Source: a virus. Taken from it: DNA of 29,192 bases. The translations under genes were made by a program, and so were the position numbers. Numbering within the stretch: position 1 is the first letter of the stretch; each line of letters starts with the position of its first letter. Below the pieces are notes generated by a model. It saw nothing but the letters and a program-made list of their open reading frames with translations, did not search any database and was not told the DNA's origin. The stretch spans positions 1 to 29,192 of the IMG/VR virus record IMGVR_UViG_3300031215_000053; one strand, written 5' to 3'. This document shows, piece by piece, positions 388-22,562 of the stretch.

Positions 388-406
388 GGGACAGATTGTC
401 CTAATA
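388..406 (+). promoter_or_regulatory. Late motif copy 1 (GGGAC-N8-CTAATA), before terS
   Basis: GGGAC at 388-392, eight bases, CTAATA at 401-406, then GGCG and the ATG of the small terminase gene. Only four bases separate the motif from the start codon and there is no Shine-Dalgarno. One of six identically spaced copies, each heading a late-gene module. Probably a promoter or start-associated regulatory site. Confidence 0.7.
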
Positions 407-410
407 GGCG

Positions 411-911
411 ATGGCGAACGAACTAGCAGACCCCCGACACGTACGACTTTGCGAGTGGCTGCTCGCTAAGCAGATTGGCGAACACAACCCTGCGACGTAT
501 GTGGAGTTGGGTGACGAACTGGGCGTGTCGGACCGAACGTTGCGTGATTGGCGTGACAAGCCCGAGTTCCAGGCGCGTCTGCGCGAGTTGACGATCCAGG
601 TGGTTGGTGACCCTGAGCGGATTCGGCAGTTGATGGATTCGATGTTTGCTCAGGCGTTGGACCCTGAGTCCTCGAAGCAGGTGCAGGCAGCGTCGGTGTG
701 GGCGAAGATGGCTGGCGTTTTGACTCCGAAGCCGAAGGTTGCGGAGTCGTCTCGTTCAGAGCTGCTTGATCTGTCCTCTCAGGAGCTTGACAAGCTCGCT
801 TTGGAGCTTTTGGCTGCCCAGCCCCACAAGGCCGCCGCCGACGAGCGAGAGGGGCACACAGCCACCTCTCCGTCGACTGCGCCGTCGGAGGGTGCCGTGA
901 GTTCTGAATGA
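411..911 (+). CDS. Terminase small subunit (TerS)
   Basis: A protein of 166 residues that probably recognises phage DNA for packaging and loads the large subunit. Residues about 25-60 form a helix-turn-helix of the kind seen in phage small terminases (YVELGDELGVSDRTLRDW, then a short helix after KPEF). A helical middle follows, then a polar Ala/Ser/Glu-rich tail from about 130. It lies directly before a small gene and TerL, the usual order. The ATG sits four bases after the CTAATA motif and has no ribosome site, so it may be read from leaderless mRNA. The stop overlaps the next start in ATGA. Family assigned by motif and context; a generic HTH protein is the alternative. Confidence 0.8.
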   Translation: MANELADPRHVRLCEWLLAKQIGEHNPATYVELGDELGVSDRTLRDWRDKPEFQARLRELTIQVVGDPERIRQLMDSMFAQALDPESSKQVQAASVWAKMAGVLTPKPKVAESSRSELLDLSSQELDKLALELLAAQPHKAAADEREGHTATSPSTAPSEGAVSSE

Positions 912-1270
912 GTAGGCTTGTTGGGTATGCGGGCGGGCTGACAGGTCGCGACCGCCGCGCCCACCTCGAAGGCTTGCGCCGCGGCCGCCAGGCCGCACAA
1001 GACCTGCGCCCGCTCACAGGGAAAACCGATGCCGTGTTCAGCGCGGCGACAACCGCTGACGGCACCGTGACGTTCCCGACGGCGTTCCTGTCGATCGACT
1101 CGGTGACCGTGTCCGTCGTCACGCCTGACGCTACAGCGACCTACGACCAGATGACAGCGAAAGTCACGGCGTACACGACGGCGGCTTTCGATTGGCGTGC
1201 CACCAACGGCTCGTCGATCTCTGCGACCGCCGAAGTGCATTACATCGTGTACGGGCAGAAGGCGGCTTGA
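908..1270 (+). CDS. Small protein with adhesin-like C-terminal domain
   Basis: A protein of 120 residues between the two terminase genes, overlapping TerS by ATGA and TerL by TGATG. The N-terminus (1-40) is basic and Arg-rich. Residues about 42-118 are Thr/Ala/Val-rich alternating strands around FPTAF, SVTVSV, FDWRA and VHYIVYG, a pattern common in small beta-sandwich domains at the ends of phage fibres and other virion proteins. It could be a minor capsid decoration or adhesin protein. An unusual cargo between terS and terL. Coding is well supported by the overlaps; the function is inferred. Confidence 0.65.
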   Translation: MSRLVGYAGGLTGRDRRAHLEGLRRGRQAAQDLRPLTGKTDAVFSAATTADGTVTFPTAFLSIDSVTVSVVTPDATATYDQMTAKVTAYTTAAFDWRATNGSSISATAEVHYIVYGQKAA

Positions 1271-2880
1271 TGTCGGAACACGAATTAGGCGACATCCTGT
1301 ATGCCAGGGAGTTCAAAAAGTGTGCGCCAGACTGGGAAACGTCGACGCTCGCAGAGAAACGCGACGCGTTCCTGTACTTCTGTGAGACTTACGCGTTTAT
1401 CCGTCACCCGTCGAAAGGCAAGATCCCGTTCGTTCTGCGCCAATCGCAGATCGAAACGGTAGATGCCTGGCTGGGGAACCGTTGGACGATCGTTTTGAAA
1501 GCCCGACAGATCGGGTTCTCCACGCTCTGTTCGATCTATTCGTTCTGGCTGACCTACTTTTACCGTGACCGTCAGGTCATTTTGATTTCCAAGGGTGAAC
1601 GTGAGGCCAGCATGCTGCTGGACCACGCCAAGTACGTGTACCAGTTCATGCCCGAATGGATGCGGCTGATGGGGCCGATGGGCAACCCGACGCTCACGTC
1701 CTGGAAAATGTCGAACAACTCGAAGCTGTTGTCGATGCCATCAGCCTCCAACCCTGCCCGTGGCGCTACAGCGTTCCTCATCGTGGTAGATGAGATCGCG
1801 TTCCTCCCAGACTCTGAGAACGCTTGGGCGTCCATTGAGCCTGTCGTCAACATGGGCGGGTCGTGCATCATGCTGTCCACAGCGAACGGTGAAGGCAACC
1901 TGTTCCACAAGGTGTGGGTTGGGGCGAAACAAGAAGCGAACCGTTTCAAAGGGATCTTTTTCCCGTGGTGGGCGTCAGACCGCGACGAAGCCTGGTACGA
2001 GGAACAGTGCCGTGACCTCCCTGAATGGCAGGTCGCACAAGAATATCCGTCGAACCCAGAGGAAGCGTTCCTCAAATCGGGTCGACCAGTGTTCGACCTC
2101 GAAAAGCTGGCGTCGATCCCGACAGCGGAACCGAAACGCAAGGGCCGTCTCGACATCACGAAAGAAGGTGTCGTGTTCGCTGAGGACGGCGGCAACCTGT
2201 CGGTGTGGGAAGACCCTGTGGTCGACGGCACCTATGTGATTGGTGCAGACGTTGCGATGGGTTTGGAGCACGGCGACTGGTCGTCGGCCCACGTCATCAA
2301 CGCACGCACAGGCGAGCTGGCGGCTACATGGTGGGGGAAAGCCGAACCCGACCTGTTCGGCGGGTACGTGCTTCACCGTCTGGGCGAGTGGTACAACAAT
2401 GCGCTGATCGGTGTGGAAAACAACAACCACGGGTTGACGACGGTCACCTCGTTGCGTGACAACCAGTACCCGAACATGTATCGGCAGCGGAATCAGGCGA
2501 AACGCATGATGACGCAAACCGAGACGTTGGGTTGGTCGACGAACAGGGCGACGAAACCGTTGATGATCGACGAACTCGCCAAAGCAGTCCGTGACGACTC
2601 GGTCAAGCTGCGTGACCCGCTGACGATCTCAGAGATGCGAACTTTCGTTCGCGAAGGCGACGGCAAGATGCACGGCTCGCCTCACGACGACCGTGTCATG
2701 TCGCTCGCTATCGCAGTTCAGATGCTCAAGTTTTGTTGGTTGCCGACATACAGGGCTGGGAAGAAGAAGCCTGGGCCTGGCACTTGGGGCTACATGATCG
2801 AAAAAGTGTTGAGCATGAAAGAACCCGAGGGGAAACGGGAAGGACCGATCGGTTCGACAGCAAAAACGTCGGCTGCATGA
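1270..2880 (+). CDS. Terminase large subunit (TerL), packaging ATPase/nuclease
   Basis: 536 residues. The N-terminal ATPase powers DNA translocation into the prohead and the C-terminal RNase H-fold nuclease cuts the concatemer. Visible motifs: a degenerate Walker A KARQIGFST (77-85), Walker B FLIVVDE (169-175, D174, E175), the coupling motif STANGEG (203-209), and nuclease acids D327 (GADVA), E383 (GVENNN) and D473/D474 (HDDR). SNPEEAFL before the nuclease half is also typical. The ATG at 1270 overlaps the preceding TGA (TGATG); an in-frame upstream start at 1192 would run through the preceding gene and is unlikely. Length is normal for the family. It ends eight bases before the second GGGAC motif. 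Confidence 0.97.
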   Translation: MSEHELGDILYAREFKKCAPDWETSTLAEKRDAFLYFCETYAFIRHPSKGKIPFVLRQSQIETVDAWLGNRWTIVLKARQIGFSTLCSIYSFWLTYFYRDRQVILISKGEREASMLLDHAKYVYQFMPEWMRLMGPMGNPTLTSWKMSNNSKLLSMPSASNPARGATAFLIVVDEIAFLPDSENAWASIEPVVNMGGSCIMLSTANGEGNLFHKVWVGAKQEANRFKGIFFPWWASDRDEAWYEEQCRDLPEWQVAQEYPSNPEEAFLKSGRPVFDLEKLASIPTAEPKRKGRLDITKEGVVFAEDGGNLSVWEDPVVDGTYVIGADVAMGLEHGDWSSAHVINARTGELAATWWGKAEPDLFGGYVLHRLGEWYNNALIGVENNNHGLTTVTSLRDNQYPNMYRQRNQAKRMMTQTETLGWSTNRATKPLMIDELAKAVRDDSVKLRDPLTISEMRTFVREGDGKMHGSPHDDRVMSLAIAVQMLKFCWLPTYRAGKKKPGPGTWGYMIEKVLSMKEPEGKREGPIGSTAKTSAA

Positions 2881-2887
2881 CCAAAGC

Positions 2888-2906
2888 GGGACACTTTCAC
2901 CTAATA
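2888..2906 (+). promoter_or_regulatory. Late motif copy 2 (GGGAC-N8-CTAATA), after terL
   Basis: GGGAC 2888-2892, eight bases, CTAATA 2901-2906, then AGTG and ATG at 2911. It sits in the 30-base gap between terL and the portal module. The bases from CTAATA through ATGG are identical to copy 4. Confidence 0.72.
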
Positions 2907-2910
2907 AGTG

Positions 2911-3168
2911 ATGGAACAGCTACCAATTTGCGAATGCGGGGCGGAATATTCGCCGCCTACCCATTCGACCGAGTCAGCGAAGCTGCACTGCTTCAAATGC
3001 AAGATGAAATCGTTCCGTGTGAACTGGGTGGGTGGCGGCAGCTACGGGCGACAAGCGTTCCACGACAAGACGACCAACGAAGTCGTTCGCGAACAGTGGA
3101 ACGACATCAAGAAAGCTGGCAACGAAAAAACGATGGAACCAGCGCCAGTGCGACAAGTGTTGATCTAA
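2911..3168 (+). CDS. Small Cys-rich (zinc-ribbon-like) protein
   Basis: 85 residues. Cysteines at 7, 9, 27 and 30 (CxC, then CFKC) could bind one zinc, followed by a basic stretch and the segment SFRVNWVGGGSYGRQAF. Small proteins of this type occur in actinophage structural regions, but I know of no assigned function. I chose the ATG at 2911; a GTG directly before it would add one residue. It heads the portal module right after motif copy 2, with no Shine-Dalgarno. Its TAA overlaps the next ATG (TAATG), so translation is probably coupled. Confidence 0.75.
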   Translation: MEQLPICECGAEYSPPTHSTESAKLHCFKCKMKSFRVNWVGGGSYGRQAFHDKTTNEVVREQWNDIKKAGNEKTMEPAPVRQVLI

Positions 3169-3503
3169 TGAAACTCAGACCTTTCGCCGCAGCGTTCCCC
3201 ATGTTTGTTATCGCGATCGGGTTCATGTGGCTGTCCGTATCGACACTCGTCAGCGGCAACCCGTCACAAATAGTTCATCCGATTGTCTGGTCGTCTACGG
3301 CGTCGATCTGCGGGTTCCTTGCGGCGGCCCGAATGTTCCTGGTTTCCCAGTCCTTGCGCCGTCTCTCTGTGTCCGCAATGATCGTGTACGGCGTGTCCCG
3401 CGGCTGCGCTTACCTTCTGGGAGCTTCACTCAGCCCGATCGGCGTTTGGCTGATCGTCGCAGGCCTGGCAGTAAAAGACTGGCACAAGCCAGAAAGGGGA
3501 TAG
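3168..3503 (+). CDS. Small multi-span membrane protein (holin candidate)
   Basis: 111 residues with three or four hydrophobic spans (about 7-28, 36-58, 67-86 and 88-103) and basic loops such as QSLRRL and KDWHKPER. It is coupled to the preceding gene by TAATG and followed by two more small membrane proteins, so it may be part of a holin/antiholin set or an inner-membrane accessory. There is no recognisable family motif. The endolysin lies far away at 20649, which leaves the lysis role open. Confidence 0.7.
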   Translation: MKLRPFAAAFPMFVIAIGFMWLSVSTLVSGNPSQIVHPIVWSSTASICGFLAAARMFLVSQSLRRLSVSAMIVYGVSRGCAYLLGASLSPIGVWLIVAGLAVKDWHKPERG

Positions 3504-3506
3504 ACC

Positions 3507-3794
3507 ATGTCTGTACCCGTGGTGGCGGTCACATTTCCCGCCGCAGTTGCTGCCGAGTCTGGTGTCACCGACCCTCTTTCCTATTTTTATCAGCTTGGCG
3601 GTTTTGCTGCCGCCGTACTGGTCGGCTATTGGGCGATCCAGTTCGGTGAGAAAAAGTTGAACAAGTCGAAAACCGATCACGACCTCGACGTGGCGCGTGC
3701 GATGGCCCTGTTCAATGAGGAACGGGCGGAGCACGACAAGACCCGTCAGATGCTTTTCGAATCACTCCGTAGCAACAAGAAAGATGACAAATGA
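3507..3794 (+). CDS. Single-span membrane protein with charged tail
   Basis: 95 residues. A hydrophobic span at about 27-46 (GGFAAAVLVGYWAI) is preceded by a short, probably exported N-terminus and followed by a highly charged tail (50-95) that probably forms a coiled coil in the cytoplasm. The architecture fits a one-span holin-like or spanin-like accessory. It begins three bases after the previous stop, with AAAGGGGA as ribosome site, and overlaps the next gene by ATGA. Function inferred from topology and neighbours only. Confidence 0.65.
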   Translation: MSVPVVAVTFPAAVAAESGVTDPLSYFYQLGGFAAAVLVGYWAIQFGEKKLNKSKTDHDLDVARAMALFNEERAEHDKTRQMLFESLRSNKKDDK

Positions 3795-3973
3795 CATTTG
3801 CAAGCCTGATCCCCACGAAAGTCCGAAGAATCGTTTACATGGTGCTTGGAACCTTGTTCGCTGTTGAAGCTGTTTGGGATGTGGTCGACGAAGGCGTCGA
3901 GTCGCGTCTAGTGTTGACGGTGGGTGCGCTCGGCTTCGTGATGGCACGCGCCAACACGAAGGGTGTTGAATGA
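3791..3973 (+). CDS. Small two-span membrane protein, probable holin
   Basis: 60 residues with a basic N-terminus (IPTKVRR), span 1 at about 12-28 (IVYMVLGTLFAVEAVW), a short acidic loop and span 2 at about 39-53 (LVLTVGALGFVMA). Small two-span proteins of this layout are common holins of actinophages. It overlaps both neighbours by ATGA and sits immediately before the portal gene. Best holin candidate of the three membrane genes here; not proven. Confidence 0.65.
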   Translation: MTFASLIPTKVRRIVYMVLGTLFAVEAVWDVVDEGVESRLVLTVGALGFVMARANTKGVE

Positions 3974-5850
3974 CCTCGAAGAAAAACTTGGGGACGTTGA
4001 AGCGTTTCCAATCCGAAGTGAACCGCGCCATCAAGTGGCGTCTCAACGAAGACTTGGACACGTTGTGGCGTCGCATGATCAACATGTATGCGGGCAAACA
4101 GTACGACACCGACTCTATTGAGGACCGTATGGTCATCAACTCGTCGTTTCGTATCAAAAACGTTATTGCCCCGTCGGTCGCTGTCAACAACCCAAAGTTT
4201 TTGGTGCAGGCCCGCCGTGCAGAGCAGGGGCCGCATGCGCTCATCACCGAAGAGGTGTTGAACTACATGTGGCGTGCACACCGTTACCAGTCAGAGTTTC
4301 GGCTTGCGGTCGACGACGCTCTCGTCGTCGGTTTTGGTTGGACGAAATGCGGTTACAAGTTCAAGACTGAGGTGAAAAAGGCTGACCCGAACACTGACGG
4401 GTCGACCGATTTCGCTGACGGCGGTGAGCCTGGCGTCGATGATCGTGAGAAGGTTGACGGCAACGTCGAGTCCGAAGTGAAGATTCACGACGATCGTCCG
4501 TTCGTGGAACGGATCTCGCCGTTCGATATCTATGTCGATCCTGACGCCCGAAACCTGAACGAGGCCCGTTGGATCGCTCAGCGGATCAAGCGGCCCGTGT
4601 CGGACGTGAAGGTGGATAAGCGGTACATCCCAGCGCATCGTGTGAATTGTGAGCAGCAGGAACGTGACGCATGGTCGCCTGCCGACGAGGACGAGCGTGA
4701 GTCGTTGACGGGTAACGAGTCGTCGAATGGGTTCGTTGACGTTTGGGAGTATTACGATCTGCGTACAGAAGAGGTTGCGACGTTCGTGATGAATTACGAG
4801 GGCGGGTTCTTGGTTGAACCGAAGCCTCAGCCGTATCCGTTCGGTCATCCGTTCGAGATGATCCGCAACTACAACGTCCCTGATCGGTTCTACCCCATGG
4901 GTGAGCTTGAGGCGATTGAGGTGTTGCAGAAAGAGTTGAACAAGACTCGTACGGAGCAGATGTTGCACCGCCGTCAGAATCAGCGGAAATATATTGCTGA
5001 CGAGCGGTTGGACCCTGAGGCGATTGATGCGTTGAAGTCGGACAAGGATAACGAGGTTGTTCGTGTCAACGGTGCGATCGTTGACATCAACAAGGCTGTT
5101 GTTCGGATGCCTTCTCATGCGATCAACGCTGACGCTTACAACATGTCTGACGTTATTTCTCAGGACATCGACGAGACGACTGGTGTGCAAGATTTCGGCC
5201 AGTCGCAGATCCGTCGTACGGCTACTGAGGCTGCGCTTATCCAGGATCAGCAGAACGCTCGTTCGTCGGACAAGTTGTCGAACATTGAGGGTTCGTTGGC
5301 TCGCATCGGTGAGAAACTGATTCAACTGTTGCAGTCGTACATGACGGGGGAGCAGGTGGTCCGTATTGTCGGGTCGGATGCGATGCCGTTGTGGTTGACG
5401 TACGACAAGGATTACATTCAGGGCCAGTTCGATTATCAGGTTGAGGCTGGTTCGACCCAGCCTCGCAACGAGTCGTTCCGTGCCCAGCGGGCGATGCAGC
5501 TGATGGAGGCGATGGCCCCGTTCTTGCAGATGGGTGTTGCTGATCCGATGGCCGTGATGCGTCGAGTGTTGCAGGACGGGTTTGGTGTGAAAGATCCTTC
5601 GCAGTTCTTCGCTCAGCAGAAGATGCCGCAGGACCCGAATGGTGGCGGCGGTCCTGGTGGTCCTGGTGGCCCCCCTGGGTCTGGTGGCCCGCCTCCTGGC
5701 ATGCCGCCTTCTGGCCCACCACCTGGGATGCCGCCGATGCCGCAGGGTGGCCCTCCTGAGATGGGTGGCGACCAGTCACCGATTGAGGGTATCCCGCCCG
5801 AGCTTTTGGCTCGGCTAAACGTTGGTCCTTCGCCCGTGATGCAACGGTAG
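3970..5850 (+). CDS. Portal protein
   Basis: 626 residues. The portal forms the dodecameric ring at one capsid vertex through which DNA enters and leaves. The N-terminal half has the typical alpha/beta content with YAGKQYDTDS, NVIAPSVAVNNPKF and DDALVVGFGWTKCGYKF. The centre has FYPMGELEAIEVLQKELNKTR and DIDETTGVQDFGQSQIRRTATEA, typical of the stem and clip regions of podovirus-type portals. The last 85 residues are a low-complexity Pro/Gly/Met tail (about 560-610), probably disordered. It follows the membrane genes by ATGA overlap and precedes scaffold and coat, the standard order. Confidence 0.92.
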   Translation: MTSKKNLGTLKRFQSEVNRAIKWRLNEDLDTLWRRMINMYAGKQYDTDSIEDRMVINSSFRIKNVIAPSVAVNNPKFLVQARRAEQGPHALITEEVLNYMWRAHRYQSEFRLAVDDALVVGFGWTKCGYKFKTEVKKADPNTDGSTDFADGGEPGVDDREKVDGNVESEVKIHDDRPFVERISPFDIYVDPDARNLNEARWIAQRIKRPVSDVKVDKRYIPAHRVNCEQQERDAWSPADEDERESLTGNESSNGFVDVWEYYDLRTEEVATFVMNYEGGFLVEPKPQPYPFGHPFEMIRNYNVPDRFYPMGELEAIEVLQKELNKTRTEQMLHRRQNQRKYIADERLDPEAIDALKSDKDNEVVRVNGAIVDINKAVVRMPSHAINADAYNMSDVISQDIDETTGVQDFGQSQIRRTATEAALIQDQQNARSSDKLSNIEGSLARIGEKLIQLLQSYMTGEQVVRIVGSDAMPLWLTYDKDYIQGQFDYQVEAGSTQPRNESFRAQRAMQLMEAMAPFLQMGVADPMAVMRRVLQDGFGVKDPSQFFAQQKMPQDPNGGGGPGGPGGPPGSGGPPPGMPPSGPPPGMPPMPQGGPPEMGGDQSPIEGIPPELLARLNVGPSPVMQR

Positions 5851-5851
5851 C

Positions 5852-5870
5852 GGGACGCTATTGCCTAATA
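5852..5870 (+). promoter_or_regulatory. Late motif copy 3 (GGGAC-N8-CTAATA), before scaffold/coat
   Basis: GGGAC 5852-5856, eight bases, CTAATA 5865-5870, beginning two bases after the portal stop. Here the next ATG is 28 bases beyond the motif and carries a good ribosome site, GAAGGA at 5887-5892. So the motif is not itself the ribosome site and fits a promoter better. Confidence 0.72.
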
Positions 5871-5898
5871 TATAAGAACAACCTATGAAGGACTCTTG

Positions 5899-6741
5899 AT
5901 GTCAGAAGAAGTTGCTGAAACATTCAGCGAAACGCAGGACCAGCCCGAAGAGTACACGTCAGCTTTCGCTGGCGGAGACTTTGGGGATGAGCCTGCACCC
6001 CCCGAGGCGAGTGCACCCATCGAAGATGGACAAGCCGAAGTTGTAGGGGATACAACCGATGAACCTGTTGAGGATCTTCACACCGTCACGGTGAATGGGG
6101 AAACTGTTCAGGTTCCTTTGAGTGAAGCCCTTGCGGGCTATCAGCGTCAGTCTGATTACACCCGCAAGACACAGGAACTCAGCCGAGCGCAGGCTCTCCA
6201 AGCTGCATTGGAGAACAACCCGCAGGCAACGCTGAGGCTTTTGCAGGAAACGTATGGAGCAGAGCAGGATGCTCGGGAACGCCAGCAGAGCGAACCCGCC
6301 CATTCAGACTCTGAGTCAGATGAGCCTGTGCCTCAATATGTACGCCAACTTGAACAGCAGGTGTCTCAACTGAGCCAGTATCAGACGAGACAGGTGCTTG
6401 ATGGCGAGTGTGATCGGTTGGCGCAGAAGTATGGCGAACACTGGAATGAGGGTGACGTGCTGCAAGAAGCGGTGCGTCGCGGGGAAAGAAACCCGCTTGC
6501 TCTTGAAAACATTTTCCGTGACCTTTCGTTTGACAAGTTTTATGCCAAGTCCACCGCTGAGCAGCGGGCCGCAAAAACAAGTCAGGACGATGACCGCACC
6601 CGTCAAGCCGCCTTGATTGCGGCGTCGGGTTCGGTGTCGGCGGGGAATGGTTCTAACGGTGTCGCAGCTCCTGTTACTCCCACAATCAATTCTGTTGAGG
6701 ACGCTTACGCAGCGGCGCTCGCCGCTCACGGCCTCGACTGA
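5899..6741 (+). CDS. Capsid scaffolding protein
   Basis: 280 residues. It guides coat assembly and is lost before or during packaging. The N-terminus (1-55) is very acidic and Pro/Glu-rich. The segment VTVNGETVQVPLSEALAGYQ followed by RQSDYTRKTQEL (about 62-92) is a hallmark of phage scaffold proteins. A long helical, Gln/Glu-rich middle and an Ala-rich C-terminus follow. It lies between portal and coat protein. ATG at 5899 is chosen because GAAGGA lies seven bases upstream; an in-frame TTG just before it is too close to that site. Confidence 0.9.
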   Translation: MSEEVAETFSETQDQPEEYTSAFAGGDFGDEPAPPEASAPIEDGQAEVVGDTTDEPVEDLHTVTVNGETVQVPLSEALAGYQRQSDYTRKTQELSRAQALQAALENNPQATLRLLQETYGAEQDARERQQSEPAHSDSESDEPVPQYVRQLEQQVSQLSQYQTRQVLDGECDRLAQKYGEHWNEGDVLQEAVRRGERNPLALENIFRDLSFDKFYAKSTAEQRAAKTSQDDDRTRQAALIAASGSVSAGNGSNGVAAPVTPTINSVEDAYAAALAAHGLD

Positions 6742-6766
6742 CACTCTCCCTGGAAGGGACTGAATC

Positions 6767-7795
6767 ATGGCTGCTATCAATAACCCCGCCGTAGCTGGCG
6801 ACGTTACCCGAGCAGGTGCCGATCTTCTGGCAACCACTCTTGACAATTACCGCGGCAAGCTGGTGGACAACGTGTTCAACAAGCACGTCCTGTCGTGGAT
6901 GCTGATGGAAAAGAACCGTACTCGCATGGAATCGGGTGGCCTCAACATTGTTGAGCACCTGATGTTCGAAGAGAACGACGATGTTACCCAGTACGATGAG
7001 TGGGATACCGTCGACATCACCCCGCAGGGTGGTATCGACACGGCTTCCTACGAATGGAAGGCTCTTGTTTCGACCATCGCCATGAGTGGCATGGAAGAGT
7101 TCAAGAACCAGGGCAAGGAACAGATCATCAATCTTCTCAAGGCTCGCATCATGCAGTCCGAGAAGTCGCTACAGAAGATGGTGAACAACCAGCTCTGGGG
7201 CATTGATACCACTGGTTTCAACTCGATCCTCGACCTCATCGACGACACCGCCACTGTTGGCGGGATCAACCCTGCTACGCAGACGAAGTGGGCTTCGCCC
7301 GTGACGGACCTGTCGGCGGCGGATACTGGAAACACTACAGACCCTGGAACCTTTGCAGAGTTTCAGCGTACCGCCACGAACCTGTACAACACGGCTTCGG
7401 ACGGCAACGATCAGGTGAAGGCGCTTATTGGCGACCAGGGTTCCCACGAAATTTACGAGCTGGGTTTGACCCCGAACGTACGTTTCACGGACACCAAGGC
7501 TGCTTCTATCGGCTTCCAGAACGTCGCGTTCAAGGGTGTCCCGTTCTACTGGGACAAGGCTGCGCCTGTCGGTACCGTCATCGGTATCAACCCTGAGACG
7601 ATCTCGCTGGTCGGGGGTAAGGGCCGATGGTTCAAGCAGAGCGGGTTCACCAAGTCTCCGATCGACGGTGACGGTGGGGCGCTCGGTGGCGGCACTTTCC
7701 GTGACGCCCGTTACGCTGTGATCACTGCGTTCGGTAACCTCACGACCAACGAGCGTCGTAAGAACTTCAAGATTGTGAACTTCGCTCAGGCGTGA
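6767..7795 (+). CDS. Major capsid (coat) protein
   Basis: 342 residues, the main shell protein, presumably with the HK97 fold. The sequence starts MAAINNPAVAGDVTRAGADL and carries the long N-terminal helix, DITPQGGIDTASYEWKAL, and a C-terminal part with KGRWFKQSGFTKSPIDGD and FGNLTTNERRKNFKIV. Position directly after scaffold, length, neutral composition and strong coding bias all fit a coat protein. The ribosome site GGAAGGGA lies about ten bases before the ATG. An intrinsic terminator follows 28 bases after the stop, so scaffold and coat form a short unit, which suits strong expression. Confidence 0.92.
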   Translation: MAAINNPAVAGDVTRAGADLLATTLDNYRGKLVDNVFNKHVLSWMLMEKNRTRMESGGLNIVEHLMFEENDDVTQYDEWDTVDITPQGGIDTASYEWKALVSTIAMSGMEEFKNQGKEQIINLLKARIMQSEKSLQKMVNNQLWGIDTTGFNSILDLIDDTATVGGINPATQTKWASPVTDLSAADTGNTTDPGTFAEFQRTATNLYNTASDGNDQVKALIGDQGSHEIYELGLTPNVRFTDTKAASIGFQNVAFKGVPFYWDKAAPVGTVIGINPETISLVGGKGRWFKQSGFTKSPIDGDGGALGGGTFRDARYAVITAFGNLTTNERRKNFKIVNFAQA

Positions 7796-7822
7796 TTCTA
7801 GTTTGAGGTTGTAACACCGTTG

Positions 7823-7862
7823 GGCGGGGGCCGCTTCGGCGGTCCCCGCCTTTCTGGTTTTG
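7823..7862 (+). terminator. Intrinsic terminator after the coat gene
   Basis: A 12-bp stem, GGCGGGGGCCGC with GCGGTCCCCGCC (one G-T wobble), closes a TTCG tetraloop at 7823-7850 and is followed by TTTCTGGTTTT. It is the only clear rho-independent terminator I see in the window. It lies just before motif copy 4. Confidence 0.9.
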
Positions 7863-7863
7863 T

Positions 7864-7882
7864 GGGACGAAAAGGACTAATA
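7864..7882 (+). promoter_or_regulatory. Late motif copy 4 (GGGAC-N8-CTAATA), after terminator
   Basis: GGGAC 7864-7868, eight bases, CTAATA 7877-7882, then AGTG and ATG at 7887. It starts 13 bases past the terminator stem, the place expected for a promoter that restarts transcription. CTAATA through ATGG is identical to copy 2. Confidence 0.78.
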
Positions 7883-7886
7883 AGTG

Positions 7887-8147
7887 ATGGCATACGAAAA
7901 CATGGCTCTGGCAAACTCTGACGGCTTCACTGCTGGCACCAATTTCGCTCTGATGCCTGACGGTTTCGAGCCTTCCTCAACCCAGATGGATGCGTGGCAC
8001 AACCCGCGCCAAAACATGTGCACGGCGAATGACAACACTTGCCGCGGCATCTCAACGAAGAAAACCCGTGATTCGGCTGCTCCGTTGTGTGCGGGCCATT
8101 CTCGGGCGTCCAGCGAGGCGAAGGCCGAGCCGAAGGTTGAAGAGTGA
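7887..8147 (+). CDS. Small protein with Cys/His cluster
   Basis: 86 residues with C45, C52, C68 and H71 (the last pair as CAGH), a probable zinc site of a type seen in small actinophage proteins. The rest is polar, with an acidic/basic tail. It lies between coat and the connector gene, where decoration or head-completion proteins are usual, but I cannot assign either. ATG at 7887 is preferred; an in-frame GTG lies directly before it. The gene begins four bases after the motif, and AAGGA is about ten bases upstream. Its TGA overlaps the next GTG start. Confidence 0.75.
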   Translation: MAYENMALANSDGFTAGTNFALMPDGFEPSSTQMDAWHNPRQNMCTANDNTCRGISTKKTRDSAAPLCAGHSRASSEAKAEPKVEE

Positions 8148-8776: not shown

Positions 8777-8777
8777 T

Positions 8778-10394: not shown

Positions 10395-10402
10395 GAGATT
10401 TT

Positions 10403-11275
10403 ATGGCTACTTTGGGGACTTTGAGCACGATTGAGGCTTCGACGCCTATTGTGGCGGCGGCGCATCAATCCAACTACAACGCTATCCGCGATTTTCTCAA
10501 CAGTCAGGTCGTTCACAAGGACGGTTCGGTTGCGATGTCTTCGGCTTCGTTGCTGTTGGGTGCTGATGCGACGGCGGCGTTGGAGGCGGTCACGAAGCAG
10601 CAGATGGAAGCTGCGGACTCTGTCGTTGCTGCCACGGTGACGGCCAGGTTGGAGAGGGCAAGCAATCTGTCTGATTTGGTAAACGTTGTGACGGCCAGGT
10701 CCAATTTGGGGTTGGGTTCGTTGGCGACGTTGAGCGCAGTGAACAACACGAACTGGTCTGGTTCGGCGTTGTCGATCGCTAATGGTGGTACGGGGGCTAC
10801 GTCGGCTACTGCGGCTCGTACGGCGTTGGGTGCACAGATTGCTGGTTCTTATGCTGCTCTTGAGCATCAGCATACAACGGGTGCTCACACCCACAATTAT
10901 GCCGCGAGTTCCCACAGCCATTCGTATGCTGCGACTTCTCACTCGCATGGTTATGCTTCGACTTCGCATATCCACAATGGTTCGACGATCATGGATAATT
11001 CTATATCGGACAGCAAGGTGGGTGCGCCTGCCACGGCGTTTTCTGGTGGTGTTCGGTACGTCCGTTACGGCAATCTTGTGTGCGCTATGACTTCTACGTC
11101 GGCGGGCAATGCGACGGTGCCTGGTGGGTTCCGCCCGTCTTCCGAGGTGAGGACTGTCGGGATTGGGGCCTCGTCTCCGTTTAATACGACGGCGATCGGG
11201 ATCAACACGAATGGGGCGATCACTGTGTATTCAGGCGGATCGGCTCGGTGGACTGGTTGTTGGCACACCAGCTGA
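10403..11275 (+). CDS. Tail fibre/spike protein with HxH repeats
   Basis: 290 residues. It has a helical N-terminus, the fibre motif IANGGTGATSATAARTALGA (125-144), then five His-x-His pairs at 155, 162, 171, 180 and 189 within a nine-residue repeat (consensus HSHSYAATS). It ends with a beta domain with FSGGVRYVRYGNLV and PGGFRPSSEVR, like receptor-binding tips. In T4 gp37 and some spikes, HxH pairs bind iron along the trimer axis, so a metal-stabilised shaft is likely. Good ribosome site AGGAGA seven bases before the ATG. Confidence 0.85.
   Translation: MATLGTLSTIEASTPIVAAAHQSNYNAIRDFLNSQVVHKDGSVAMSSASLLLGADATAALEAVTKQQMEAADSVVAATVTARLERASNLSDLVNVVTARSNLGLGSLATLSAVNNTNWSGSALSIANGGTGATSATAARTALGAQIAGSYAALEHQHTTGAHTHNYAASSHSHSYAATSHSHGYASTSHIHNGSTIMDNSISDSKVGAPATAFSGGVRYVRYGNLVCAMTSTSAGNATVPGGFRPSSEVRTVGIGASSPFNTTAIGINTNGAITVYSGGSARWTGCWHTS
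10865..10975 (+). repeat. His-x-His repeat coding region
   Basis: Codons for five HxH pairs; the last three spacings are 27 bases (nine residues) with variants of CAC-AGC-CAT-TCG-TAT-GCT. The DNA is diverged while the protein pattern is kept, which suggests selection on the protein. Confidence 0.75.
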
Positions 11276-11276
11276 T

Positions 11277-11295
11277 GGGACGAAACTGTCTAATA
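11277..11295 (+). promoter_or_regulatory. Late motif copy 5 (GGGAC-N8-CTAATA), before internal proteins
   Basis: GGGAC 11277-11281, eight bases, CTAATA 11290-11295, between the fibre stop (11275) and the ATG at 11310. It is followed by GATGAGGA, where GAGGA serves as ribosome site seven bases before the start. Confidence 0.72.
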
Positions 11296-11309
11296 GATGA
11301 GGATGCTTG

Positions 11310-12173
11310 ATGGTTGAATACGCAAAATATTCTGGGCAACGTCGCCAGATCAACGATCAGTATGCGTCTCAGTCTGCTGCGAACGAGTTTGGGCGTTTCA
11401 ATGCTGGGAAGGCAAGCAAGCGTTCTTCTGCTGCGTTGAACACTGGCTATGACCGCACCCGCTCCAATTGGGAGCGGGCAGGTCAGGCTGCTGAAACTAA
11501 TTGGGGGCGGACACAGGCCCAGCAGGGTTGGCAGCGGGCCGATTACGATCAGGGTTGGGATCGTCAGTCGCGTGGGATGGCTGAGGGGATGGCCGATTAT
11601 TCTCGCGGTTATGGCCGTCAGCGTGACGATTTTGGTCGACAGCAGAGCGATTATCGTCGAGCGTTCACGGATCAGACTGGCGGGTTTATGAACTCGTTGG
11701 CTGCCCGAGGTTTGACTGGTCCTGGTGCTGGCGGTGGCGTGGTCGATCAGACGGTGGGTCGTCGGATGGACGACAATGTTCGTCAGGAGGATTTGTTCGC
11801 TTTGCAGGAGGGGCGGATGGCTGACGATTACGGTTTGGGTTTGGGCCGTATGGAGCGCCAGTTATCTGAGGGTCAGGCCGATTATGAGACTGGTTCTCAG
11901 CGGATGACTGATCAGTTTGGTTGGGCTTCTGACGATTATGCGACGGGCCGTGAGGATTGGACTCGTCAGGGGCAATGGTCGCTTGAGGACTATGTGCGTG
12001 ATAAGGGTTATTTGTCGAACGATTTGGTCGATGCGAATAACCAGTTCGATATTTCTCAGGCTTCGTTGGATGAGATGCAGGCGAATGCGTTGGCGGATTT
12101 GGAGGCGGCGAAGGCTGCTGAGATTGCTGAGGCCGCTATGGGCGTGAACGCTATTAGGCCACTTTTAGGTTAG
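11310..12173 (+). CDS. Putative internal virion protein
   Basis: 287 residues, unusually rich in Gln, Arg, Asp, Tyr and Trp in short helical repeats such as GWQRADYDQGW, DYSRGYGRQRDDFGRQQSDY and MTDQFGWASDDYATGRED. The centre has a Gly-rich break (LTGPGAGGGVV) and the C-terminus is an Ala-rich helix. Repetitive helical proteins of this kind, placed after tail genes and before a giant protein, are often ejection or core proteins of podoviruses. No catalytic motif. ATG at 11310 is chosen over the adjacent TTG because of GAGGA at 11299-11303. Confidence 0.65.
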   Translation: MVEYAKYSGQRRQINDQYASQSAANEFGRFNAGKASKRSSAALNTGYDRTRSNWERAGQAAETNWGRTQAQQGWQRADYDQGWDRQSRGMAEGMADYSRGYGRQRDDFGRQQSDYRRAFTDQTGGFMNSLAARGLTGPGAGGGVVDQTVGRRMDDNVRQEDLFALQEGRMADDYGLGLGRMERQLSEGQADYETGSQRMTDQFGWASDDYATGREDWTRQGQWSLEDYVRDKGYLSNDLVDANNQFDISQASLDEMQANALADLEAAKAAEIAEAAMGVNAIRPLLG

Positions 12174-12182
12174 GATTTTTTT

Positions 12183-13154
12183 ATGCCTCATGTTCCTGAA
12201 CATTCGCGGAGAACTCCGTCTCATAGTCGTGGGACGCCGAACCCTGACGCGTATCGGCCTCCCCCTCCTCGCACTTCTCGTCCTTCTACGGGGACTGGGT
12301 ATGAGGTTCCGCTGTTTGATCCGTCGACTCGGGAAGCGTTTGACATATACCAGACTGGAATCACTGATGTGAGCAGGATTCCTGGCGGCGCTCCTTCTGG
12401 GACGTACACCGACACGTTGGGCTTGAACCTTGGCGATGGCGCGGGCGGGTATCCGCTACCGACCACTTCTGGTGGAGGTGGCGGCGGCGGTGGTCGTGGT
12501 CGTGGCGGCGGTGGTCGTGGTCGTGGCGGCGGTGGTCGCGGTGGTGGCGGCGGTAAGGCTGACGCTTTGAAAGCAGCCAACTCTACTGCGGCGGCGTTGC
12601 GTGAACTGCTCGCTTCGGGCATGTTCACCGCATCGGACAACGGCGGTCTGCGGACACAGATGCAGGGCGCTTTCGATCAGGACGCTGCTACAGCGAAGGG
12701 CGCGTACGATTTTCTTGACGGGTCGATCGGCACACGCTCTGCGTGGGACGATCTTCGATACGACGATCCTGGGCCTGCGACGATGGAGCAGTCGGTTCGC
12801 GATTGGGCGTCTCAGAACGGTTTGGACGGTCGGGGTGCCGAAGCACAGTTGGCGTTGCAAAACAACGAACGTGCTTCGTCGAGGTCGGCGGCAGAAAACT
12901 TTCGTCGCCGTATGGCTGCTAAAGCCCAGTCGGGTTTGTCGTCTCGTCGGACAGAGGCTGGGCAGATGCGTCAACAGTCGTCTGATGGGCGTGCAGCCCA
13001 GCAGCGGGCGATGGAAATGGGTTTGACGTTGCGTCAGAAGGAAGAGCAGAAGGCTCGGGACGCTGAACGGATGCAGGTGATTATGCAGTTGATTTCTGTT
13101 ATGGGCGGGGTTGGCGAACAGGCCGATCTTTCTGGTCTTCTGGGAGGAAGCTGA
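12183..13154 (+). CDS. Putative internal virion protein with Gly/Arg tract
   Basis: 323 residues. Residues 1-90 are Pro/Ser/Thr-rich and probably disordered. Residues 97-124 are an almost pure Gly/Arg tract (GGGGRGRGGGGRGRGGGG), and the rest is helical and Ala/Gln/Arg-rich with a C-terminal amphipathic helix. RGG-like tracts often bind nucleic acid, so contact with packaged DNA is possible. The ribosome site AGGA precedes a T-run and the ATG. The stop overlaps the next ATG (TGATG). No family recognised. Confidence 0.65.
   Translation: MPHVPEHSRRTPSHSRGTPNPDAYRPPPPRTSRPSTGTGYEVPLFDPSTREAFDIYQTGITDVSRIPGGAPSGTYTDTLGLNLGDGAGGYPLPTTSGGGGGGGGRGRGGGGRGRGGGGRGGGGGKADALKAANSTAAALRELLASGMFTASDNGGLRTQMQGAFDQDAATAKGAYDFLDGSIGTRSAWDDLRYDDPGPATMEQSVRDWASQNGLDGRGAEAQLALQNNERASSRSAAENFRRRMAAKAQSGLSSRRTEAGQMRQQSSDGRAAQQRAMEMGLTLRQKEEQKARDAERMQVIMQLISVMGGVGEQADLSGLLGGS
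12489..12540 (+). repeat. 21-bp tandem repeat encoding GGRGRGG
   Basis: Two exact 21-base copies (12489-12509, 12510-12530) of GGTGGTCGTGG then TCGTGGCGGC, and a third degenerate start at 12531. Each encodes seven residues, so length change would keep the frame. Confidence 0.8.
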
Positions 13155-14305
13155 TGGGCGCAGGTTTTAATCCTTTCCCGACTGCGGCGGCGCTGCCGAT
13201 CGACGACGAAGGCGTCGGTTCAACCAAGGGCACGAACGCTTTGCAAGACTACATGGCGTTGCTGTCTGACCCGATGTTCGGTGTGATGTCGTCGATGAAC
13301 CAGCCTGGCGGGTTCGGTATTGATGCGAGCCTGCTGTATGGGGAACCTGAGCAGATCCCGATGCCCGACATTTCCACCACGTTCTTCGACTCGCTGGCTG
13401 AGTCGCAGACGCCACTCGACCAGGAAATCGCGGACGCCATTATGGCGGGCCGATCGTTGCCATCCATTTATGAGATCCTGCGCGAGGGGTTGGGCGACAA
13501 CAAAGACGTTCTTTCTGATTACAAAGACGCGGCGAAGCAGGCGTGGGAAGAGTACAAGGTAGCGGAACAGGCTACGTTGACCTGGGAACGCCAGATGGAT
13601 GAGGCGCAACCCGTCAAGTCGGCTTTGGCGGAAGAGCTGGAGAAGGCGGGAATCCCGCTGGACACCCAATACAACCAGGCCAATCTGGACCCGATGCAAC
13701 AGTTCCGCACCGACGATCTTTCTGCGTCCCGCGGCACCCAGAAAGACATGTCGGACGAGATCAAACGGTTGAAGGAGTCGATCACTGCGGGCGAGGGCCG
13801 TTTGCGCCAAGGCCAGGAACGTGAAGCCTGGTCGGCGCGCGGCGAAAACATGATGAACCGTCCAGGCGCTCCCCAAGGCGGGTCGCGTCCAGGACCACAA
13901 GAACCCCTCCCTGCCGAGCTTGCCGACATCATGTCGTTGGCGGAGGGCAGCGGCAACGCCGACCTTATTCCCCGCCGACGGCCAACAGAGAAGGCTGCTC
14001 CTGGCGGGTCAAACAAATGGTGGGGGCAAGACGAAAGTCCTTCGGCGATGGTCAAGCGGTTGCAGAAAAACGATCCTGACGTGCTTATGAAGGCACTCGG
14101 GGATCAGCGGGCGAAGCAGAAAAGTTTGCAAGCCCAGTTCACTCAGGGCTCTAAGGCGCGTGCGGACGCCAGCGCCGAAGATTACGAGACTCGACGGCTT
14201 TCTGAGTGGAAGGCCCACAAGTTGCAGGAACAGGGCCGCAACCCGATGTCTGACGCTATCGGTGCACGCAACAGGCAGCTCCGACAGATGGGGCTCCAGA
14301 TTTGA
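13154..14305 (+). CDS. Putative virion/ejection protein
   Basis: 383 residues, of unknown family. The N-terminus (1-90) has Gly/Pro/Met-rich segments. Residues about 110-240 are strongly helical and charged, with likely coiled coil (DYKDAAKQAWEEYKVAEQ, KDMSDEIKRLKES). A Pro/Gly linker (about 240-300) and another basic helix at the C-terminus follow. It overlaps the gene before it by TGATG and the giant gene after it by TTGA, so the three are probably made in proportion and act together. Confidence 0.65.
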   Translation: MGAGFNPFPTAAALPIDDEGVGSTKGTNALQDYMALLSDPMFGVMSSMNQPGGFGIDASLLYGEPEQIPMPDISTTFFDSLAESQTPLDQEIADAIMAGRSLPSIYEILREGLGDNKDVLSDYKDAAKQAWEEYKVAEQATLTWERQMDEAQPVKSALAEELEKAGIPLDTQYNQANLDPMQQFRTDDLSASRGTQKDMSDEIKRLKESITAGEGRLRQGQEREAWSARGENMMNRPGAPQGGSRPGPQEPLPAELADIMSLAEGSGNADLIPRRRPTEKAAPGGSNKWWGQDESPSAMVKRLQKNDPDVLMKALGDQRAKQKSLQAQFTQGSKARADASAEDYETRRLSEWKAHKLQEQGRNPMSDAIGARNRQLRQMGLQI

Positions 14306-17300
14306 TCAACCAGTTCGATCTTGCCCGACAAAAAGCTGAGGCACAAAAAATCCATCAGTCCCGCCAGGGACGCGGATTGGCGTACTCGCCTATGCAGCAG
14401 TTCCAACAGCCACGCCCGCAACGCGAGGGCGGCGAAGACCGTCTGTTGGAGGCGGCTAAAGCCCATCTTGGCACGTCCGAACCAGAGGGTGAGGGCGGTT
14501 GGAAAGGGTTCATCGGCGGCGTGCTCAACAACCCTGTCGCTTCTGTGCTCGCAAAGCCCCTCGAAGCTATCTCGATGGGTGGACGTGGAGTAACGGTTGG
14601 TGTCGAGGAGTTGGCGAAGGCTCTGCCCGAGTGGGCAGAGTTCCTGAACCCTCTCGGCATGCTCGTTGACGAAGACAAGTCTCGGGACGACGATCGTTCA
14701 TGGACCGACAAAATCAAGGACAACAGTTACGGGTACGGGCAGATCACTTACAACACGGGCAACAAATGGGTTGACCGTGCCGTCGGTTTGGCTGGCGACC
14801 TGCTGCTCGACCCGACCACCTATTTGACGGGCGGTTCGGGCAAGTTTGCTGGGACCGCTGGCCGTTTGGCTGCTGCCGAAAAGTTGGCGATCAAGGGTGC
14901 GGATGCGGCGACGATTCAAAAGGTTTCTCGTCTCGGGATCTCATCGTTGGACGATGTGACCCGAGAGATGATTGGTGCTGGGCCTGCTGGCGCACGTTTC
15001 ATGGGTAAAAGGATTGCGGGCACAGGTGGCGCTACTAACGCTGTGGCCCGCGGTGTGTCGAAGGGTGCTGCCCGCGTGGGTGACACGTCTGTGGGTCGTG
15101 GCGCTGCGGCGTTGCGTACACCGAAGAACATCAAGGATGAGGTTGCTTCGCTGCGGGCGAAAGATCCGACGTTGGACCCGCGGTCGGCTATCACAGTCAT
15201 TCATGCCCGTAACGTGATCAGGTCTGAGGGGCGGACGTTCGGTCAGTCTCATGCAGCCGATTTGCGGAAGGTGATGGCGATGTCGCCGTCTGAGCGGTCT
15301 GCGTTGACGCATGCGGCTGAGAAGGGTGTTGATAATGAGGCGTCGCGTTTGGCTGCGTCAGTGTTCTCTGGGGCGAAAGAGAAGGGTGTTAGCGGTCTGA
15401 CGGAACGGGCGAATTATGTGACGCATGTGCCGACGAGTTCAGGCAAGTCGTTGATGCAATCGTTGCGCGAGACTGGACAGATCAAGGTCGACGATCTCCA
15501 GTCGCATGGTCGTGCGTTTGCCCGCTCGCTGGAACCTGGCGGCACGTACAGTTACAACGGCCAGGCGGTGACGTTGGGTGATGCGTCGGTTGACGACATC
15601 AACCGCAAGTTTGGTCCTTTGGTTGGCGGCGAGAAGGTGATGGAGGACGATTTCGCGAAGATTGCTCAGGTGATGGTCGGCACCACCGCCGAAGACGTTG
15701 GTGTCGCCCAGGCTGTCAGGTCGGCTAAAACGAACTTCCCTGATCAGGTCGAGGCTGAAACGCTCGGGCTGGAAGGGCAAGGTTGGAAACAGATCGTTGA
15801 CGAGAACGCCACCAAGGCGACGAACAAGACGGCGAAGGCGGCGTCCAAGAAAGAGGTCGACAAGATCAAGACTGTTGTCAAGGGTTTGGAGGCGGAGATT
15901 GGTTCTGCGTCAAAACAGTCTTTGCGGGACGCTAAGGCATATTTGACTTCGGTGATCGACGAGTTGGGTACCGCTTCTAAAGCGTCGAAAGCTGAGCTTA
16001 AAAGGATTCTTGCGGCCGATGTTGCTGAGGGAAAGAACCTTGACAACTTTTTGGATGCTTGGCGGACACAGTATGAGGCGTCGCAGGATTGGGTGAAGAA
16101 CTCTTCCCGATATTTGGAGATGGAAAACGATGATGCTTACGCCGCGTTGGGTGGCGTTGTGCGTCCTGGTGGCAGGAAGTCTGACGCTAGGCAGTTGGAG
16201 GCGTTGGCCGAGTTGGCTGAGAAAGATTTTGAGGTGTTCGAAGCTATCACTACTGGTCGCCGTGAGGTTCTCCAGAGTGAGGTTGGTGTCGCTGAGGGTA
16301 ATTCGGCGGCGTTGAGGGCGCAACGGTCTGAGCGTGAAGCTGTGTCTGGGGCTATGCAGGACGAGTTCCGTGAGGGTGCGGTGGCGGCTCGCAGCGAGCT
16401 TGCTGTGTTTGAGGCTACGAAGGCTGAGGCGAAGGCGTTGCGTGGAGAGGTTCGTGATCTTCCCCAGAATAGTCGTGTGCGGTTGCAGGAGTCGATGGAT
16501 GAGCTTGACCAGATTCTGTCGGAGTGGGGTGGGAAAACACCTGATCCTGAAACCCAGCAGATCCTTGACCAGCTTGTCGATGTTCGTCGCATGGAGGTCG
16601 AGGTCGAGGGGTTGGGTTGGACGAAGAAGCGTCACGAAGATTTCATCCAATATGTTAAGGACGGTTCGCTTCCTGAGCGGATGAAGGCTGTTGCGGCTGA
16701 CGGGTGGTCGCGTCTCGAATCTCGGGTGTTCGCTGCGGGTGACAGTGTGATGATGCGCGATCAGGTCCGTAACGGGTTTTTGAACGCCACCGAAATGACA
16801 GGCAAAAAAGAGTATTGGCGTCTGTACGACAACTACACGTCGTTCTTCAAAACGTATGCGACTGCTACCCCAGGTTTCCATGTCCGCAACTTTATGTCGG
16901 CGTCGTTTATGAACGCCACTGAGGGTGTCACGATCCGCGAGCATGCGGAAGCTATGGCTTGGTGGAAGAAGGTTTGGTCAGATCCGAAACTGATCGCAGA
17001 TGAAGGTTCGGCCCCCCAGTACATTAAGGACGCTTTCAAGGCGACGTACGGTTCTGGTGCTGGTGGACGGTTCGGTGCCGACGAGATCGCAGATCCAACG
17101 TTGTATGGGCGGGCGACGAACAACAAGGTGACACGCGGGTCGCAGCGTATGGGTGAATGGGTTGAGGGGCCGATGCGTTTGGCGTTGGCGTTGAACACTA
17201 CGAAGCGTGGCGGTGATACTGCTGAGGCGTTGGCGCGTGTGACACGTATCCATTTCGACTATTCGCAACTGTCCGAGTTTGATGAGGCGATGAAACGGGT

Positions 17301-17868
17301 GATCCCGTTCTGGACTTTCATGTCTCGATCGCTGCCTTTGCAACTCCAGCAACAGTTTTTGAAGCCTCGGGCGTACGCACGCTTCGATCATGCGGTCAGG
17401 AACTTCACGGACGAAGACGCCGAGGGCACGATGCCTGAGTGGATGGAGGCGGCTGGCGGCTTCATGGTCGGTGACGGCAAAGCCATTGTTCCCGACTTCC
17501 CGCATCTCGATATTCAGGAACAGTTGGCGATGTTGGGCGATCCGAAACGTTTGGTGGCGAACGCGAACCCGCTGCCGCGTGCTGCGACCGAAATCTTTAT
17601 GGATCACCAGTTGTACAAGGATCGTCCGTTCTACGAAGACGAAAACAAACCCCAATATTTTGCGACGAACACTTTGCCTGTCCTCGCCCAGTTGGAACGT
17701 TTGTCTGGTGGTCGGGTGTCGCAAGCGTTCACGGGTGACCGTGATGAGCGGCGCGACGATCGACAGTTCGAAGCGATGTTGAACTGGTTGGGTATCCCCA
17801 CGAAGGGTGTGGATGTCCCTAAAACTCAGGAAGATATCGCTCAGGCTTTGCGGGACAGTTTGGCCTAA
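14302..17868 (+). CDS. Giant internal virion (ejection) protein candidate
   Basis: 1188 residues, the longest gene here. Near the N-terminus it has VGLAGDLLLDPTTYLTGG (about 160-177), which I associate with very large phage internal proteins. Residues about 480-800 are helical and charged, probably coiled coil. Near 990-1025 comes HFDYSQLSEFDEAMK followed by RVIPFWTFMSRSLPLQ, a motif also seen in large virion proteins of unrelated phages. No lytic transglycosylase signature was recognised. It probably enters the host envelope with the DNA. The start is TTG in TTGA overlap. The stop TAA lies inside motif copy 6. Confidence 0.7.
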   Translation: MINQFDLARQKAEAQKIHQSRQGRGLAYSPMQQFQQPRPQREGGEDRLLEAAKAHLGTSEPEGEGGWKGFIGGVLNNPVASVLAKPLEAISMGGRGVTVGVEELAKALPEWAEFLNPLGMLVDEDKSRDDDRSWTDKIKDNSYGYGQITYNTGNKWVDRAVGLAGDLLLDPTTYLTGGSGKFAGTAGRLAAAEKLAIKGADAATIQKVSRLGISSLDDVTREMIGAGPAGARFMGKRIAGTGGATNAVARGVSKGAARVGDTSVGRGAAALRTPKNIKDEVASLRAKDPTLDPRSAITVIHARNVIRSEGRTFGQSHAADLRKVMAMSPSERSALTHAAEKGVDNEASRLAASVFSGAKEKGVSGLTERANYVTHVPTSSGKSLMQSLRETGQIKVDDLQSHGRAFARSLEPGGTYSYNGQAVTLGDASVDDINRKFGPLVGGEKVMEDDFAKIAQVMVGTTAEDVGVAQAVRSAKTNFPDQVEAETLGLEGQGWKQIVDENATKATNKTAKAASKKEVDKIKTVVKGLEAEIGSASKQSLRDAKAYLTSVIDELGTASKASKAELKRILAADVAEGKNLDNFLDAWRTQYEASQDWVKNSSRYLEMENDDAYAALGGVVRPGGRKSDARQLEALAELAEKDFEVFEAITTGRREVLQSEVGVAEGNSAALRAQRSEREAVSGAMQDEFREGAVAARSELAVFEATKAEAKALRGEVRDLPQNSRVRLQESMDELDQILSEWGGKTPDPETQQILDQLVDVRRMEVEVEGLGWTKKRHEDFIQYVKDGSLPERMKAVAADGWSRLESRVFAAGDSVMMRDQVRNGFLNATEMTGKKEYWRLYDNYTSFFKTYATATPGFHVRNFMSASFMNATEGVTIREHAEAMAWWKKVWSDPKLIADEGSAPQYIKDAFKATYGSGAGGRFGADEIADPTLYGRATNNKVTRGSQRMGEWVEGPMRLALALNTTKRGGDTAEALARVTRIHFDYSQLSEFDEAMKRVIPFWTFMSRSLPLQLQQQFLKPRAYARFDHAVRNFTDEDAEGTMPEWMEAAGGFMVGDGKAIVPDFPHLDIQEQLAMLGDPKRLVANANPLPRAATEIFMDHQLYKDRPFYEDENKPQYFATNTLPVLAQLERLSGGRVSQAFTGDRDERRDDRQFEAMLNWLGIPTKGVDVPKTQEDIAQALRDSLA

Positions 17869-17870
17869 TA
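17852..17870 (+). promoter_or_regulatory. Late motif copy 6 (GGGAC-N8-CTAATA), before fibre/lysis unit
   Basis: GGGAC 17852-17856, eight bases, CTAATA 17865-17870; the TAA is also the stop codon of the giant gene. GGTGAGGA follows, with GAGGA as ribosome site for the ATG at 17883. Confidence 0.72.
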
Positions 17871-17882
17871 GGTGAGGAACGC

Positions 17883-19920: not shown

Positions 19921-19930
19921 GGACGAACCA

Positions 19931-20611: not shown

Positions 20612-20648
20612 CAGCGAGAGCGAAAACATCGACTGACATGGTGAAAGA

Positions 20649-22561: not shown

Positions 22562-22562
22562 T

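Follow-up and report, generated by a model that had tools for sequence, protein, structure and literature searches.

What do six identical copies of one bipartite sequence, GGGAC-N8-CTAATA, do at the late gene boundaries of a phage? The first-pass annotation had considered a promoter for a phage-modified host RNA polymerase, a regulator site like the start-associated sequence (SAS) of mycobacteriophages and a 5' UTR element. We address the question with the copies themselves, their orthologous sites in relatives, their distance to gene starts and the phage proteins that could read them.

Motif copies in the window

A pattern scan of the window, the whole 29,192-nucleotide stretch of viral DNA that was analysed, found six exact copies, all on the plus strand and all at gene boundaries, whereas 0.01 would be expected by chance. 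None of 100 shuffles yielded six. The copies and the features next to them are as follows.

388..406, plus strand: motif copy 1, heading TerS/TerL; predicted +1 at 411, the A of the ATG
2888..2906, plus strand: motif copy 2, heading a small Cys-rich gene, small genes and portal, with an orthologous site in relatives; predicted +1 at 2911, the A of the ATG
2908..3168, plus strand: gene directly after copy 2, small and Cys-rich (zinc-ribbon-like); L009 and L012 have homologues in the same position
5852..5870, plus strand: motif copy 3, heading scaffold and coat; predicted +1 at 5875, with a 24-nt leader AGAACAACC...AGGACTC
5875..5898, plus strand: predicted scaffold mRNA leader, GAGCAACC/GAACAACC...GGACTC, conserved over the family
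7822..7851, plus strand: intrinsic terminator downstream of the major capsid gene; stem of 13 pairs, 11 of them G-C
7864..7882, plus strand: motif copy 4, heading further virion genes, 12 bp past the terminator stem; predicted +1 at 7887, the A of the ATG
11277..11295, plus strand: motif copy 5, heading the 'internal' block; predicted +1 at 11300, with a 10-nt leader
17852..17870, plus strand: motif copy 6, heading tail fibre and lysis and overlapping the stop codon of a 1188-aa gene; predicted +1 at 17875, with an 8-nt leader

The positions, the strand, the invariant halves and the 8-bp spacing reported by the first-pass annotation were all confirmed by the scan, as was its by-eye statement that the window holds no other exact copy. 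A seventh is absent from the window, and no further exact copy was found in the 4.7 kb to its left, read from the near-identical contig L028. Allowing two mismatches gave 11 matches in the window versus 2.55 expected; the five beyond the exact six are scattered over both strands and look like background. The copies sit in gaps, except copy 6, which overlaps the TAA that ends the gene before it. Conservation extends past the two halves, as R follows GGGAC and RGTGAKG tends to come after CTAATA. Neither the eight central bases nor the bases 5' of GGGAC are conserved among the six copies, the latter having been pointed out before. The functional blocks assigned earlier stood for terminase, portal, scaffold/coat and fibre/lysis; the names given to block 4 ('connectors') and block 5 ('internal proteins') have weak or no matches to known families behind them.

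An A comes 18 nt after GGGAC in 6 of 6 copies, and we predict this A as the +1 at each site. The surroundings of copy 4 bear on whether transcription begins there. No plus-strand terminator found in 19 kb is stronger than the hairpin at 7822..7851, and the ATG of the next gene follows 35 bp after its stem; therefore, that gene needs either a transcription start in between or read-through. The same order of hairpin and element after the capsid gene recurs in seven relatives (G001, L010, L012, G011, G013, G014 and G018).

Orthologous sites and distance to gene starts

The window phage is a member of a large phage family that is mostly known from metagenomes alone. The hosts of the family are probably actinobacteria, and relatives found in one Acidimicrobiales MAG and one Actinomycetes MAG provide weak clues. 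The closest clade (MCP about 62% identical) carries GGGACAAACTTTACTTATAGGTGAG, GGGACAAAAAGAACTAATAGGTGATG and like copies at matching gene boundaries. Among relatives whose contigs could be used, G001 (the same as L009/L270) is the nearest; its contig covers five of the boundaries, and GGGACA-type copies occupy all five, namely those at the small Cys-rich gene, the scaffold, the post-capsid gene and the block that precedes the big protein, and the one following that protein.

G001 contig positions about 123, 2278, 4253, 8441 and 14935: GGGACA-type motif copies

A copy also lies ahead of TerL in L012. Farther relatives have GTAACGA, GGAACGA, GTGACA or GGGGACA at homologous sites (after TerL, in the portal/scaffold gap and after the capsid gene), and GC-rich lineages have lost the TATA part and retained GGGAC. 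Occurrence at unrelated sites in relatives had been named at the outset as a possible refutation; the check was run, and the relatives keep the motif at homologous boundaries. In many GTAAC lineages, the TAA of GTAAC doubles as the stop codon of the preceding gene, an overlap that may explain part of this spelling. The window and L012 have the element too, although their stop codon lies apart from it.

When 2.9 million viral contigs were scanned for exact matches to the extended motif, six loci came up. Four belong to this virus or to a near relative, and the other two, L037 and L038 (33% GC, inside a gene), were judged to be chance matches. On the late strand of L015 (MW202803), about ten GTTTC-N5-GAAAC palindromes lie 5' of genes, and some of these places are homologous to those of the window motif; despite these placements, the palindrome was rejected as the same motif and is a different element. 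Another different element, TTCAAT...GACACAGAGCAACC, precedes the scaffold leader in the soil clade, for example in L059-L062 and L180.

The distance to gene starts could be analysed with no motif assumed. When 12 genomes were pooled, GTAAC ranked first among 1024 5-mers at -21 to -23 from start codons, with 30 genes versus 2.3 expected and 29 of the 30 on the late strand; the enrichment was too weak genome by genome and clear only in the pool. Among genomes carrying the sigma-region-4 gene described below, the element-to-start profile peaked at 22 (23 genes) and again at 19 (15 genes), compared with a mean of 3.8 per offset elsewhere. The second peak arises partly from tandem in-frame starts such as GTG-ATG, and the early strand gave no peak. 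The scaffold genes are arranged differently: the element lies tens of bases 5' of the start codon, and a ribosome-binding sequence separates the two. Here, the untranslated leader GAGCAACC...GGACTC begins 17-20 nt from the element, about equal to the 16-18 nt that separate element and start codon at other genes of the relatives. This leader also persists in lineages without the element or without the sigma-region-4 gene.

A sigma-region-4 protein as candidate reader

From about 23.4 kb, the minus strand of the window carries replication genes (primase, helicase), and a gene for a putative transcription factor lies on the same strand.

23406..24239, minus strand: 278-aa protein with a sigma-70 region-4-like helix-turn-helix (HTH; residues about 45-110) and a C-terminal domain; candidate reader of the motif

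In the window and in 13 of the long relatives looked at first, this gene lies immediately past the big virion gene and is encoded on the other strand; MW202803 has a weak match. A PDB profile search found region 4 of FliA, WhiG and SigF (best E 1.4e-10). Pfam Sigma70_r4 was matched by 14 of 15 members, the window's own member being weak when searched alone (E 0.035), and the PHROGs matches of these proteins fall into sigma-factor and late-activator families. The AlphaFold2 model is confident over the HTH part only; the 50 PDB fold matches listed are, by description, sigma factors or complexes with one, none with an E-value below 0.001. Region 2 of sigma was not seen, as Pfam gives region 4 only and the roughly 45 residues before the HTH are modelled with low confidence.

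The domain stands alone (about 120 aa) in some relatives and is fused to a further domain in the window. This C-terminal part (HHKYGAGN...) looks like a domain of its own, perhaps nucleotide-related; some relatives encode it as a separate gene or lack it. Neither tblastn in phages nor patterns in viral contigs found a match to the window protein; the versions of the relatives were recovered solely via Pfam and a profile. In the sigma-4-like HTH of L015 (MW202803), the turn is lengthened by an insert of about 11 residues.

Gene and element are both missing at these sites in the soil clade. On the tree of the big protein, however, presence of the gene amounts to a single change, and the soil clade is also GC-rich. 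The joint absence therefore counts as one event, and co-presence, albeit strong by counts, was set aside as independent evidence. By a strict pattern test, 28 of 47 carriers of the gene have the element versus 2 of 17 non-carriers, with two of the 28 positives (the window and G014) scored by hand; the other 19 carriers gave no match to the strict pattern in the late region covered, roughly 10 kb.

One position in the recognition helix, which we take to be a known specificity position of sigma-70, appears to vary with the spelling of the element. It is W or F in combination with GTAAC or GGAAC, H in the window and Y in G014 (both GGGAC), S in L289/L290 (GTGAC), and M in the GTAGC lineage, which has one GTAAC site. 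This column was chosen after looking, and its apparent tracking of the spelling is only a lead.

Elsewhere on the minus strand, 25619-26563 encodes an AEP-TOTE type primase (PF22548, E 4e-10) near a DnaB-like helicase, and no DNA polymerase was recognised. A match to a Q-like antiterminator at 27942-28547 was discarded as merely a CxxCxGxG-type zinc motif.

Competing explanations and known systems

If the motifs were promoters of a single-subunit (T7-type) or other phage RNA polymerase, CTAATA-RG would resemble a TATA-G start and the RNA would begin directly after CTAATA. Relatives indeed have CTATAGG, CTAAAGG and CTTATAGG at the place where T7 and T3 promoters have CTATAGGG and CTAAAGGG, and the closeness of the motif end to the gene start, only a few bases, is easier for T7-type enzymes. 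The single-subunit RNA polymerase gene that such promoters require was, however, not detected in the window or 14 relatives. PF00940 matched nothing over the cut-off in the window, which is a fragment, or in these relatives, whereas the T7 control was positive; G011 gave one sub-threshold match of 39 residues. Among the relatives searched, G009 has a 123-bp end repeat and is therefore probably complete, and ten of its early proteins gave no polymerase match. Its virion protein of 2662 residues (17246-25234), homologous to the large proteins of the window (14302-17868, 1188 residues) and L339 (2315-11140, 2942 residues), was covered only by reading for short polymerase motifs. Moreover, the part that T7-type enzymes read most closely would be the unconserved N8, leaving no unbroken conserved stretch of about 20 bp that reaches to +1, and GC-rich lineages drop the TATA part yet keep GGGAC. 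We consider a T7-type origin highly improbable. An ordinary host promoter of the sigma-70 or ECF class, with the host polymerase at hand and no phage factor needed, could draw on the fact that GGAAC is an ECF -35 core. As the first-pass annotation had argued, the spacing does not fit: sigma-70-type hexamers 16-18 bp apart occur at chance level in the region and never at the motifs, and ECF promoters need about 16 bp between elements, compared with 8 here. The spelling also differs between phage lineages, and we give this explanation hardly any credence.

An element that acts in the RNA near the 5' ends of late mRNAs, as a translation signal or a processing site, would fit the fixed AUG distance in most genes, the tandem GTG-ATG starts and the several copies without a clear Shine-Dalgarno sequence. 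At scaffold genes, however, the ribosome-binding sequence lies between the element and the distant start codon, the motif copies share no common RNA fold (z-scores -1.6 to 0.3), and Rfam gave no match, which makes such an element unlikely. A site for a regulator that modulates transcription from upstream, such as a stoperator or a SAS-like operator, has precedents in actinophages, where short asymmetric one-way intergenic repeats of unshown function lie near start codons (PMC3203893, PMC7302621). However, copy 4 directly follows a strong terminator, where transcription must restart, and the distance to the start codon or to the conserved leader is fixed. We regard a pure regulator site as rather unlikely. 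The SAS-like and 5' UTR options raised earlier thus fit less well than a promoter, given the scaffold site upstream of the ribosome-binding sequence, the absence of a common fold and the location of SAS at the ribosome-binding sites of non-structural genes (PMC3203893).

Known phage systems help to place the preferred reading, a late promoter that depends on a phage protein. T4 middle and late factors and sigma-4-like late activators redirect the host polymerase via sigma-like parts. The general mode of action would be shared, and some of the sigma-region-4 proteins match a PHROGs late transcriptional activator family, but the promoter layout differs; the parallel drawn here is one of mode of action and need not mean sequence membership. 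The nearest proven system is that of the phiEco32-like phage 7-11, whose eight late promoters, GTAAtg-(16)-aCTA, are used by host RNA polymerase with the phage sigma gp47 (PMC8948821). As in 7-11, the window motif is bipartite and repeated at late gene blocks, the GTAA and CTA halves are similar to GTAACGA...CTA in relatives, and the phage encodes a protein with sigma region 4. In contrast, the spacing is 16 there and 8 in all six window copies, gp47 forms a holoenzyme by itself whereas only region 4 is recognisable in the window protein, and the start sites were mapped in 7-11 and are here predicted from sequence, at or near the AUG.

Microbacterium Cluster EC phages combine an 18-bp motif, TAGaCTATaGGTgTaAgC, with a gene annotated as 'RNA polymerase sigma factor' (PMC7302621). 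They share with the window a repeated one-way intergenic motif containing CTATAGGTG, a small protein of sigma-factor type (by annotation in the EC phages), an actinobacterial host, probable in the case of the window, and an unproven function. Unlike the window motif, the EC motif precedes a start with a ribosome-binding site by 21-30 bp, and a TTAGAC-like element can be read about 19 bp 5' of it, which is near-normal spacing; the 77-aa EC protein annotated as sigma factor has no Pfam match. The SAS of Cluster K mycobacteriophages is likewise an asymmetric actinophage repeat near start codons in one orientation, but it is a contiguous 13-bp sequence at the ribosome-binding site of non-structural genes (PMC3203893), whereas the window motif is bipartite, at late genes and upstream of any ribosome-binding site. 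Since the halves of 7-11 are alike with a different spacing, and EC and SAS differ, we file the motifs as likely to work like phage-specific late promoters, a likeness in working that need not mean membership of the class.

We favour, with somewhat better than even confidence, the explanation that the six motifs are late promoters to which the host RNA polymerase is redirected by the phage sigma-region-4 protein. From each motif, transcription of one late gene block would begin anew at the A 18 nt past GGGAC, giving three mRNAs that are leaderless from the AUG and three with leaders of 24, 10 and 8 nt. The sigma-region-4 protein, made from the opposite (early) strand, would bring the polymerase to the motifs by recognising the GGGAC half, and the DNA would open at the CTAATA half. 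Promoter function as such appears well supported by the sequence comparisons, and we infer both the transcription starts at the motifs and the protein as their reader. Among the options in the first-pass annotation, a promoter used by a phage-modified host polymerase has the strongest support, from the orthologous sites, the upstream terminator, the fixed start distance, the sigma-region-4 protein and the failure to find a T7-type polymerase. The layout counts against it: with the predicted +1, GGGAC lies at -23 to -19 and CTAATA at -10 to -5, an arrangement that is neither canonical sigma-70 nor ECF and would place a bound sigma-4 domain nearer the start than normal by about one helical turn. 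The 8-bp spacing matches none of the promoter classes compared.

A bolder version, which we put forward only tentatively, is that these sites form a compact promoter class in a large uncultured phage family, in which a detached sigma-4 module reads a -35-like GGGAC or GTAAC across an 8-bp spacer and transcription starts on the A of the AUG. If so, promoter recognition and translation start would be locked together. With at least four natural spellings and sequenced candidate factors, recognition is directly testable. If our favoured explanation is right, a large, mostly uncultured phage family would gain a defined late regulon with a candidate factor, and a promoter layout unforeseen by current models of sigma-dependent initiation.
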